The translations under genes were made by a program, and so were the position numbers. The notes below the pieces were generated by a model. It did not search any database and was not told where the DNA came from. It saw nothing but the letters and a program-made list of their open reading frames with translations. This document shows, one piece after another, positions 17,320 to 21,810 of a DNA stretch of 64,000 nucleotides. This DNA is from Flavobacterium collinsii (lineage in GTDB: Bacteria; Bacteroidota; Bacteroidia; Flavobacteriales; Flavobacteriaceae). Where the stretch lies: the NCBI RefSeq assembly GCF_902804485.1, contig NZ_CADCST010000058.1, positions 1-64,000 on the forward strand, given 5' to 3'. Numbering within the stretch: position 1 is the stretch's first letter; every line of letters begins with the position of its first letter.

Positions 17320-17898
17320 ATGAAAAAGATTCTTATTATCAATGGTCACCCCAATCCGTCCAGTTTTAATTTTGCACTGGCAGAATCGTATCTCAAAGGA
17401 GTAATTGCGTCTAAAGCGGAAGTAGATACGATTACAATTGCGAAGCTCAACTTCAATCCGAATTTACAGTTTGGTTATCAAAAGCGCACCGAATTAGAGC
17501 CCGATTTGTTAGAGTCTTGGGAGAAAATAAAAAAAGCAGATCATTTAGTCTGGATTCATCCGGTTTGGTGGGGTGGATTGCCCGCGATTACAAAAGGTTT
17601 TATTGATCGGTTGTTTCTGCCGGGTATGGCTTTCCAGTACCGTGAAAACTCGGTTTGGTGGGATAAGTTGTTAAAAGGAAAAACGGCTCATATTATCACG
17701 ACCTTAGATCAGCCTGGCTGGTACTACAGATTGTTTTATGCAAGACCGAGTGTCAATCAGTTGAGGAAGGCTACTTTAGAATTCTGTGGAATAAAACCTG
17801 TAAAGGTGAGTTATATTGGAATTATAAAGATAGCCGATGAATCACAAAGGAAAAAATGGTTGCAAAAAGTATATAATTTCGGGGTGCAGCATAAATAA
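17320..17898 (+). CDS. NAD(P)H-dependent (quinone) oxidoreductase, flavodoxin-like fold
   Basis: A 192-residue flavoprotein of the KefF/MdaB/NQO1-like family. KILIINGHPNPSSFN is the FMN/FAD phosphate loop, and VWIHPVWWGGLPAITKGFID is the characteristic isoalloxazine-binding segment of NAD(P)H:quinone reductases. It would reduce quinones by two electrons in the cytoplasm. ATG at 17320 is preferred over the in-frame TTG two codons earlier. It follows the Rossmann reductase by 6 bp, so the two are probably one transcript. It converges on dnaX with only 3 bp between stop codons and no room for a terminator. Confidence 0.88.
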   Translation: MKKILIINGHPNPSSFNFALAESYLKGVIASKAEVDTITIAKLNFNPNLQFGYQKRTELEPDLLESWEKIKKADHLVWIHPVWWGGLPAITKGFIDRLFLPGMAFQYRENSVWWDKLLKGKTAHIITTLDQPGWYYRLFYARPSVNQLRKATLEFCGIKPVKVSYIGIIKIADESQRKKWLQKVYNFGVQHK

Positions 17899-17901
17899 AA
17901 A

Positions 17902-18531
17902 CTAGGTGTGTAAATCCAATCCAAATGTAGTGCGTAAAAGGTCTATATTTGGGTTGATTTCCATCAGACGATTGTATCGGTCCTGATCGTTAAGACTGCG
18001 TTTAACTTCGATCGCTTCATTAACATTAACCTCAATTGTAATATCGTGATTGTGTAAATGTCCTTTTAGATGGCCTAAAAGGCCATGAATCTGACCTTCA
18101 AAATCTAGTTTAGAACCTTCATTTGGTAATTCAAAAGTAATAGTTGTGCCGTTTAACTTTGGGTCGTTGATCAACAATAACGACTGCATGATTTTGTGTC
18201 CTTTATCGCCTAGACGCTGTGCATATTTGTTCCATTGCACTAACATTTCAGTCTCTGTAAATTCTTCTGTAGGCATTACAGAAGTTGGTTTTACATAAGT
18301 TTTATTGGCCGCTTCTAATTCTTTTTTCTTGCGGATGCTTGATAAAGAAAAGGCAGAAACTTTTGGTTCTGTGCTTAATTCAGGTTTTGGAGCTGAAGCT
18401 GTTTCGTCGTTTTTTGAAGTTTCGGTTCCGGGTACAGTCGTTTGGGGAGTTTCTGTCTTTGGAGTTTTAACTTCAACGATAGAATATCCGCCATTTTTAT
18501 AATAAGTGGGAGGAATTATGAATTGCTCAAC
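17902..18531 (-). CDS. dnaX: DnaX tau-specific C-terminal extension, reached by -1 frameshift
   Basis: This frame continues dnaX after the A10 run at 18532-18541. Reading from the G at 18531 gives an uninterrupted 209-residue extension. It starts VEQFIIPPTYYKNGGYSIVE and passes through a Pro/Thr/Lys-rich linker. It ends in a compact domain with FTETEMLVQWNKYAQRLGDK and TITFELPNEGSKLDFEGQI, like the C-terminal region of tau in Bacteroidota. Joined to the upstream frame it would give a tau of 566 residues. Continuous coding character across the break shows this is one gene. Whether expression uses ribosomal frameshifting or polymerase slippage, or whether the run has a base-count error, cannot be decided here. 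Confidence 0.85.
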   Translation of the reverse strand, partial: VEQFIIPPTYYKNGGYSIVEVKTPKTETPQTTVPGTETSKNDETASAPKPELSTEPKVSAFSLSSIRKKKELEAANKTYVKPTSVMPTEEFTETEMLVQWNKYAQRLGDKGHKIMQSLLLINDPKLNGTTITFELPNEGSKLDFEGQIHGLLGHLKGHLHNHDITIEVNVNEAIEVKRSLNDQDRYNRLMEINPNIDLLRTTFGLDLHT

Positions 18532-19601
18532 TTTTTTTTTTCTCCATCAAAATTGATAGAGGCCAACTGCATTAGGCATAACTCGACTAAAAGGCGTTGG
18601 TTTTGACTTAGTTTGTACTTTAAATCACAGTCATTGGCAATGTCGATTCCTTTTAACAGAAAATCCTGCGAGCATTTTTGTGCCTGAACTCCATACATTT
18701 GCTGGGCTTGTTCACCTACTTCAAGTAAAGCGATCGTAGCAGGAGTTTTACTTACCAGTAAATCTCTGAAATGAGAAGCAAGTCCTGCAATAAAATGATG
18801 TCCGTCAAAACCTTTTGCGAGTATGTCGTTGTAGGCTAATAAAACATCCGGAATTTTATTTTCTAAAAGTAAATCGGTGATGCTAATGTAAGTTTCGTAA
18901 TCTAGAACGTTTAGATTTTCGGTTACGGCCTGACGTGTTAAGTTAGTTCCGCAATACGAAACCACACGATCAAAAATAGATAAAGCGTCACGCATTGCAC
19001 CATCAGCTTTTTGAGCGATAATGTGCAAAGCATCGTCTTCAAAATTGATTCCCTGACTTGCAGCAACATCTGCTAAATGTTCTTTAGCATCTTTTACCGT
19101 AATTCTTTTGAAATCAAAAATCTGACAACGAGATAAAATCGTTGGAATAATTTTGTGTTTCTCTGTGGTAGCCAGAATAAAAATGGCATGTTTTGGCGGT
19201 TCTTCCAATGTTTTAAGGAAAGCATTAAAAGCGGCCGAAGACAACATGTGAACCTCGTCAATAATATAAACTTTATATTGTCCGGTTTGTGGCGGGATTC
19301 GAACCTGATCGATCAGATTACGAATGTCATCAACAGAGTTGTTTGAAGCAGCATCTAACTCAAAAACGTTAAAAGCAAAATCTTCAGTAGGATCATCATA
19401 TCCGGGCTGATTTATTTTTCGGGCCAGAATACGCGCGCAGGTTGTTTTACCAACACCACGTGGTCCCGTGAATAAAAGGGCAGAAGCAAGGTGATTGCTG
19501 TCTATAGCATTCAGCAAAGTGTTGGTAATGGCTTTTTGTCCCACTACATCCTTAAACGTCTGTGGGCGATACTTACGGGCCGATACTACAAATTGTTCCA
19601 T
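18516..19601 (-). CDS. dnaX: DNA polymerase III gamma subunit (zero-frame product of dnaX)
   Basis: The clamp-loader ATPase, 361 residues in the zero frame. AAA+ motifs: Walker A GPRGVGKT (46-53), Walker B VYIIDEVH (111-118), sensor 1 LATTEKHK (143-150) and the SRC arginine-finger motif (157-159). The four cysteines of the usual DnaX zinc module are missing between Walker A and ELDAASNNSVDDIR, so that insert has been lost. The frame ends seven codons downstream of the A10 run with KKKLSNS, giving a gamma-like protein. A -1 shift at the in-phase heptamer A AAA AAG yields the full tau. In E. coli the roles are reversed: the zero frame makes tau and the shift makes gamma. Confidence 0.93.
   Translation of the reverse strand: MEQFVVSARKYRPQTFKDVVGQKAITNTLLNAIDSNHLASALLFTGPRGVGKTTCARILARKINQPGYDDPTEDFAFNVFELDAASNNSVDDIRNLIDQVRIPPQTGQYKVYIIDEVHMLSSAAFNAFLKTLEEPPKHAIFILATTEKHKIIPTILSRCQIFDFKRITVKDAKEHLADVAASQGINFEDDALHIIAQKADGAMRDALSIFDRVVSYCGTNLTRQAVTENLNVLDYETYISITDLLLENKIPDVLLAYNDILAKGFDGHHFIAGLASHFRDLLVSKTPATIALLEVGEQAQQMYGVQAQKCSQDFLLKGIDIANDCDLKYKLSQNQRLLVELCLMQLASINFDGEKKKLSNS
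18530..18545 (-). promoter_or_regulatory. dnaX slippery sequence (A10 then G)
   Basis: On the minus strand the text reads GGAG, nine more A's and G, so the run is ten A's (18541-18532). The reading phase places A AAA AAG exactly as in the E. coli dnaX heptamer. The zero frame terminates at TAA seven codons later, and the -1 frame is open for 209 codons. Confidence 0.8.
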
Positions 19602-19620
19602 GTTCTATTTTATTCGATAG

Positions 19621-19628
19621 CAAATATA
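19621..19628 (-). promoter_or_regulatory. -7 box (TATATTTG) of dnaX
   Basis: The minus-strand TATATTTG matches TAnnTTTG and ends 19 nt upstream of the dnaX ATG, giving a very short leader. No clear TTG is visible at -33. Confidence 0.42.
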
Positions 19629-19806
19629 GGCTGAAAATTGCCAAATCACAAATCTGAAATTGATAAATGTTGGAGTTGTTTTTGAGTGTTTTGAATATGA
19701 GAAAGTAACGTTTTAGAATTTGAATTTTAGTATTGAAGAAAATGCGAAGAAGTATTTTTTTGCTCTTCATTTTTAACTTTTCGTTATGAAACTGATTTCG
19801 ACCTAT

Positions 19807-21796: not shown

Positions 21797-21810
21797 ATTT
21801 TTTTTTATTT
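21797..21810 (+). terminator. T-tract after rnpB
   Basis: ATTTTTTTTTATTT follows the P1 helix immediately. The P1/P3-region structure plus this U-tract probably ends the RNA. Confidence 0.5.

Follow-up and report, generated by a model that had tools for sequence, protein, structure and literature searches.

The window analyzed here is the whole stretch of 64,000 nucleotides from Flavobacterium collinsii (contig NZ_CADCST010000058.1, positions 1 to 64,000 of the forward strand). Its minus strand carries dnaX, which is divided between two overlapping reading frames at a run of ten A's. The features of the locus are the following.

18516..19601, minus strand: zero-frame ORF of dnaX, the gamma product, 361 amino acids, with the AAA+ clamp-loader ATPase, lid and domain III
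18554..18561, minus strand: 5′ arm of the hairpin, CTCTATCA
18550..18553, minus strand: loop of the proposed nascent-RNA hairpin, ATTT
18542..18549, minus strand: 3′ arm of the hairpin, TGATGGAG, flush against the A10 run
18532..18541, minus strand: A10 run, the putative slippage site, coded GAA AAA AAA AAG (Glu354 to Lys357)
18527..18529, minus strand: TGA, stop of the +1 frame at its second codon, which would close a gamma-like product from A9 or A12 messages
18516..18518, minus strand: TAA, the zero-frame stop that closes gamma
17902..18534, minus strand: ORF of the tau tail in the -1 frame, 210 codons plus TAG at 17902-17904

The A10 run of the coding strand appears as T10 at positions 18532-18541 of the plus strand. 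An earlier note on this DNA had proposed that gamma is the templated product, that tau requires a shift of frame and that the A run is the site of the shift, with dnaX of E. coli and Thermus as homologues. All of this holds, and its coordinates and logic are correct to within one codon: the zero frame indeed encodes 361 amino acids, with TAA as the sixth codon (not the seventh) counting from the AAG that closes the run, and the -1 frame stays free of stops over 210 codons rather than 209. Tau is predicted to be 566 amino acids long and could be entered through one additional A or two fewer A's in the mRNA, or through a -1 shift of the ribosome. The stop codon of tau is separated by 3 nucleotides from a convergent flavodoxin-fold reductase-like gene (PF02525, 17314-17898).

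The gamma ORF matches PF13177 (E = 2e-34), PF22608 (E = 7e-13) and, below the cut-off of that family, PF12169 (E = 1e-4). It also passes the cut-off of TIGR02397 (dnaX_nterm) with a score of 380.6 against 250, and it aligns with positions 1-370 of the NCBIfam model NF011531 (PRK14971; E = 8e-185, 616 bits). The tail, which has no match when searched alone against Pfam, aligns with positions 437-613 of the 614 positions in NF011531 (E = 6e-22). Neither ORF by itself reaches the cut-off of this model (685). Because the two ORFs match opposite ends of one model, we identify the tail, by profile similarity, as the tau domain of dnaX, in agreement with the tau-like domain that the earlier note had recognized in the open -1 frame. 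The dnaX A10 is the sole A/T run of at least nine within an ORF of at least 100 amino acids in the window. Six other A/T runs of nine (at 21798, 29863, 32444, 41506, 53593 and 62948) lie outside such ORFs, a placing in line with selection against runs of this kind in genes.

We gathered 285 dnaX loci from Bacteroidota genomes, drawn from named genome contigs, from part of 199 Flavobacterium genomes and from part of 392 genomes; 283 are distinct after two duplicates were removed, and the locus of the window itself (L001) was also dropped. The sample is not random. The best matches to the window came first, together with 120 regions chosen by hand, and the tau-in-frame layout is over-represented in the Flavobacterium sample because the hand choice took all 11 Flavobacterium genomes with an open frame of at least 588 amino acids among the matches listed. 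Tail frames were assigned with a profile of the C-termini of single-frame genes. Across the 283 loci the tail lies in the -1 frame in 139, in the zero frame in 134 and in the +1 frame in 5, and five loci without a recognized tau tail (L057, L063, L102, L103 and L106) have no assignment. Three of these, L063, L103 and L106, have frames ending at 442, 367 and 384 codons, respectively, and may lack tau or be broken.

The comparison with related Flavobacterium that the earlier note had suggested bears out its observation: 103 of the 117 distinct Flavobacterium genes likewise have an A10 or similar run with an open -1 frame after it, while 11 tails are in the zero frame and 3 in the +1 frame. Among the 61 other Flavobacteriaceae and near relatives, 55 tails are in the zero frame, 5 in the -1 frame and 1 in the +1 frame. 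All eight loci of family f2 and two relatives, f2 looking by its sequences like the family of Chryseobacterium, have the tail in the -1 frame. The 87 other Bacteroidia comprise 22 tails in the -1 frame, 59 in the zero frame, 1 in the +1 frame and the 5 without assignment. The tail is in the zero frame in 9 of 9 loci from other classes and in the -1 frame in one further metagenome relative (91%). The tail itself is well maintained. Over its last 125 codons in the 103 Flavobacterium genes of the -1 layout, differences at codon positions 1, 2 and 3 number 48513, 35204 and 99292, respectively, and the ratio of nonsynonymous to synonymous rates in the -1 frame is about 0.09 (1500 random pairs). These patterns of substitution indicate that the tail evolves as protein in the -1 frame, under purifying selection.

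On a tree of 278 proteins, built with FastTree and having long branches and weak support at 106 of 273 inner branches, the layout has changed at least 29 times and the run has been gained or lost 8 times, these counts being minima on that tree. The -1 layout alone accounts for 27 changes, 15 of which are forced by well-supported branches, and at least nine layout changes are needed for a set of 123 rows made up of Flavobacterium, a single near relative and five outgroup rows. In L138, L140 and L145 the frame difference lies just past a run that has remained A10; L147 and L148 have A11. Since the templated frame has switched repeatedly, neither dnaX layout is an error. In one other genus of Flavobacteriaceae, 27 of 30 genomes have a long single frame and three have switched, L137 (G283) with A10, L294 (G592) with A11 and L298 (G607) with A9. 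L137, whose +1 row is identical to a row from G502, and the metagenome bin L056 combine A10 with a +1 tail and would need the mRNA to lose one base or gain two. The other three +1 layouts differ in run length (A9, A9 and A12) and could be assembly errors.

At least nine A's are found at the same position of dnaX in 262 of the 283 loci, and exactly ten in 220. Such runs occur only twice in 280,011 nucleotides of gamma codons 1-330 and six times in 171,444 nucleotides of tails in the 283 genes, so the run at the dnaX site exceeds chance. Its reading phase takes all three values, its flanks vary, and the next base can be G, T or C. In 248 of 260 loci, both non-tau frames meet a stop no later than 10 codons on, compared with 22-36% for randomly chosen places in those tails. 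In Flavobacterium, the third positions of codons 354, 355 and 356 are A in 117 of 117 genes, which places them as the top three of 48 conserved E/K/Q columns; by itself this test is moderate, two further columns reaching 99%. In 116 of the 117 genes the run is followed by G. No A run of at least seven was seen at the site in L063, L065, L069, L075, L079, L090, L097, L103, L106 and L108, mostly Bacteroidales, or in nine further loci, and two more have A7.

Directly 5′ of the A10 run lies an inverted repeat that was absent from the earlier note's reading, CTCTATCA-ATTT-TGATGGAG (18561..18542), which can form eight pairs, one of them G-U. A stem of at least eight pairs ending no more than 3 nucleotides from the run is found in 93% of the 117 Flavobacterium loci and in 64% of the 61 other Flavobacteriaceae, compared with 1-2% of controls. 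When at least six pairs are counted (loops of 3-12 nucleotides allowed, two G-C pairs required), the stem is present in all 117 and in 50 of the 61, respectively (controls 2.6% and 2.0%), whereas 11 of the 61 other Flavobacteriaceae and all eight f2 loci have none. The fixed shape of 8 bp with a 4-nucleotide loop retains at least seven of its eight pairs in 161 of 179 loci, and it does so with every tail frame (105/109 for -1, 52/66 for zero and 4/4 for +1). Folding of the last 22 nucleotides before the run, in at most 45 loci per group, gave a mean z of -5.05 in Flavobacterium (45 of 117) and -4.09 in other Flavobacteriaceae (45 of 61), against -0.04 in controls, -0.28 in f2, -1.23 in other Bacteroidia (45 of 71) and 0.51 in other classes.

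The peptide across the hairpin is conserved (A-S-I-T/N-F-D-G-E), and the choice of synonymous codons was therefore tested. The third base of codon 347 is C in 115 of 117 Flavobacterium genes, though the codon specifies any of four amino acids. Ser348 is always TCT or TCC (117 of 117; at most 0.69 in ten other Ser columns), Ile349 is ATC in 114 of 116 (at most 0.59 in 21 other Ile columns) and Gly353 is GGA in 115 of 116 (at most 0.68 in 12 other Gly columns). Asp352 as GAT (115 of 116) and Phe351 as TTT are less telling, because such codons are common elsewhere. Several synonymous positions of the putative stem are thus nearly frozen. Furthermore, the observed fold was compared with those of synonymous resamplings that used codons of the same gene. 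It ranked among the most stable 5% in 108 of 117 loci of Flavobacterium (control windows 8.5%), 49 of 61 of the other Flavobacteriaceae (7.1%), 1 of 8 of f2 (4.2%), 16 of 71 of the other Bacteroidia (6.6%) and 0 of 4 from other classes (0%).

The stem can also be kept with other bases. L199 pairs CTCCATTA with TAATGGAG, and a T-A pair replaces the T-G pair in L311. Six outliers have other bases or another loop: L037 has a CTCTATCC stem with a 10-nucleotide loop, L040 an 11-nucleotide loop, and L047, L133, L204 and L209 a GGCTTC/GAAGCT-like stem. In other Bacteroidia the stem is found in 12 of 71 loci (control 4.9%) and in other classes in 1 of 4; in the f2 locus L054 an AT-rich stem appears only when the G-C requirement is dropped. 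The predicted hairpin is mainly a trait of Flavobacteriaceae and not of every A10 site, and because it is missing from part of the other Flavobacteriaceae and from f2, and rare in the remaining groups, it is not needed for use of A10 in general. In the f2 set (L212-L217, L054 and L058) gamma is in frame in all eight loci, and seven have the run in phase 0, with A10-A12; lacking a G-C-bearing 5′ stem, this set is perhaps a separate solution of the same layout. A search of Rfam at E ≤ 1 over 17800-19700 gave two matches far below the gathering scores, which we take as chance. A terminator scan reported no site at the dnaX run, and an intrinsic terminator was rejected, since whichever strand is read, the run either stands on the wrong side or consists of the wrong letter for one. 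A plasmid search with the dnaX site gave no match.

From the run, its conservation, the frames and stops around it and the synonymous constraint in the stem, we infer that the site is probably one of programmed transcriptional slippage, which would be the main route to tau and would set the ratio of the gamma and tau products. RNA polymerase would slip on A10 and release dnaX messages with A10 and, in part, with A9, A11, A12 and so on. The A10 and A9 messages would give gamma, and the A11 or A8 messages would give tau. Once the polymerase has copied the last A, its hybrid of 9-10 bp (PMC5009743) would contain nothing but the A run, with the stem closing right behind it, a geometry like that of an intrinsic terminator with A's in place of U's. 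In Flavobacteriaceae, a hairpin directly behind ten rA:dT pairs would promote realignment; that it stimulates slippage is a proposition for and against which we see about equal weight. Slippage would feed all frames, so it would matter little whether gamma or tau is the templated frame, and lineages have swapped them repeatedly.

The principal alternative is the -1 frameshift of the earlier note: ribosomes would make tau by shifting at A AAA AAG, the messages all having A10 and the products being reversed relative to E. coli. That note correctly placed the heptamer at the shift point in the phase of the zero frame, and all 103 Flavobacterium genes of the -1 layout have a G immediately after the run; the retention of the heptamer in this genus counts against an account by slippage only. 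Three tRNA-Lys genes were found in the genome, all UUU, and no CUU species (50 of 52 tRNA places typed in an assembly of 205 contigs), and a sole tRNA-Lys(UUU) is the condition under which E. coli ribosomes slip at this heptamer. The likeness to E. coli, which has A AAA AAG in the same gene and the UUU tRNA-Lys, does not extend to the stimulators. The E. coli type has a Shine-Dalgarno-like stimulator about 10 nucleotides upstream of the heptamer, whereas the GGAG seen here abuts the run, 4 nucleotides from the heptamer and inside the hairpin. In 40 genes taken from the 103 with the -1 layout, neither a 3′ stem-loop nor another downstream stimulator gave a signal (mean z of 0.10 and -0.04 in two run-adjacent windows). 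A 5′ hairpin is not a usual stimulator of -1 shifting, and in human cells an upstream hairpin is reported to attenuate it (PMC6321510).

Several features of the run also fall outside what a ribosomal shift explains. The heptamer uses the last six A's only, and the third-position A of Glu354 is not required by it. The invariance of the early A's, the close stop in the +1 frame and the runs before T or C in relatives are left unexplained, and the +1 layouts (5 of 283, of which some may be errors) could not be served by a -1 shift. In relatives the run persists whatever its phase and whether G, T or C comes next, and some tails are +1; its early A's do not vary among the Flavobacterium genes sampled, and the folding test downstream gave no signal. 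We therefore consider ribosomal shifting only a rival, and an unlikely one; polymerase slippage fits better. Slippage of the polymerase and slipping of the ribosome on the same run might both shape the tau:gamma ratio, as the sequence requirements of slippage, the heptamer and tRNA-Lys(UUU) coexist in Flavobacterium. No evidence requires the second process, however, and with no 3′ stimulator seen we regard this combination as less probable still.

It is far less probable that the gene is split, with gamma and the tau tail as separate proteins and the tail made from a start codon of its own. An ATG-started ORF of 124 amino acids does lie within the tail (18276..17902), but its Met is replaced in 10 of 12 genes of the -1 layout among those listed. 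The first in-frame ATG lies 15 to 147 codons past the run in the 103 genes, a spread overlapping that of 78-139 in 11 fused genes, and the tails listed are conserved from the run onward (KVEQFIIPP...), before any start codon is reached. An internal start was rejected on these grounds, the Met not being kept and the position of the first ATG being scattered. Finally, the earlier note had allowed for one A lost by a sequencing error, and although homopolymers are error-prone and the assembly is in 205 contigs, an error of sequencing or assembly, or a pseudogene, is refuted as a general account and has a negligible chance of explaining this locus, because a single lost base cannot account for a layout spread over 103 of 117 distinct Flavobacterium genes (single-contig genomes included), f2 and other families, and moreover the tail is under purifying selection and relatives with tau in frame, L138 and L140 for example, carry the frame difference outside the run.

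Transcriptional slippage at dnaX has precedents. The arrangement reversed relative to E. coli is present here, as the earlier note had stated, but it is not new: a dnaX of two ORFs, with gamma in the first and tau requiring recoding, was published in 2013 (Antonov et al., PMC3711429) and reviewed in 2016 (PMC5009743). Antonov et al. reported an A10 run in nine of 17 two-ORF genes and proposed slippage by analogy with Thermus; a criterion like the one applied here, different directions of shift within one gene family, also served in that paper to call slippage (PMC3711429). The locus described here is of the same kind, gamma ending in the zero frame just past an A10 run and the tail following in the -1 frame. 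Flavobacterium may be among their A10 genera (Supplementary Figure S3). The available text of that paper mentions no hairpin, no phylum-wide count and no repeated switching (PMC3711429). In Thermus thermophilus, dnaX is subject to transcriptional slippage at A9 (PMC5009743, PMC1088944), and the two sites share a homopolymer of at least nine A's (9-10) and near stops in both non-tau frames. Taken together, the presence of the run in all phases, the switching of the tail frame and the close stops in the non-tau frames fit slippage of the Thermus type. The sites differ in that tau is templated in Thermus, whereas gamma is templated here and tau in 134 of the 283 sampled loci; T. thermophilus has two tRNA-Lys (PMC5009743), whereas only the UUU species was found here; and the parts of PMC5009743 and PMC1088944 that were available mention no 5′ hairpin for Thermus.

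A parallel to the hairpin is offered by IS630 of Roseiflexus, in which a 5′-adjacent stem-loop enables slippage on a motif that shows no detectable slip otherwise (PMC5009743). There too an inverted repeat with a 4-nucleotide loop lies immediately 5′ of the motif, so that the stem stands behind the 9-10 bp hybrid. The motif is U5C5 in a mobile element, compared with A10 in a replication gene here, and the outcome is a one-base deletion, whereas both insertions and deletions would be expected at dnaX. In Blochmannia, correction by slippage has been proposed for a frameshifted dnaX at another place in the gene (PMC3017870). Among the matches listed, open-licence titles and abstract openings, a set mostly without subscription papers, contained no report of slippage or of a hairpin at dnaX of Flavobacteriaceae. 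Thus, the reversed, gamma-first layout is already known, and the conserved hairpin beside the A10 run may be new.

The full reading is that hairpin-assisted slippage of the polymerase decodes dnaX across Flavobacteriaceae, the stem beside the rA:dT pairs acting as a mirrored intrinsic terminator by which the transcript is realigned and not ended, that the ratio of products is set at transcription, and that the templated frame has been nearly free to drift, with many switches during which the run persisted and the stem mostly did; we think this whole about evenly poised between right and wrong. Gamma and tau set the number of polymerase cores carried by the clamp loader. If their ratio is fixed by RNA polymerase through the hairpin and A10, the site would be an in vivo reporter of the effects of nascent hairpins on elongation complexes. 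The same reading, if true, would explain why some Bacteroidota genomes seem to have a truncated or frameshifted dnaX and others an intact one. For evolution, it would mean that a recoding signal can stay conserved while the frame joined by that signal does not, a point that is testable.
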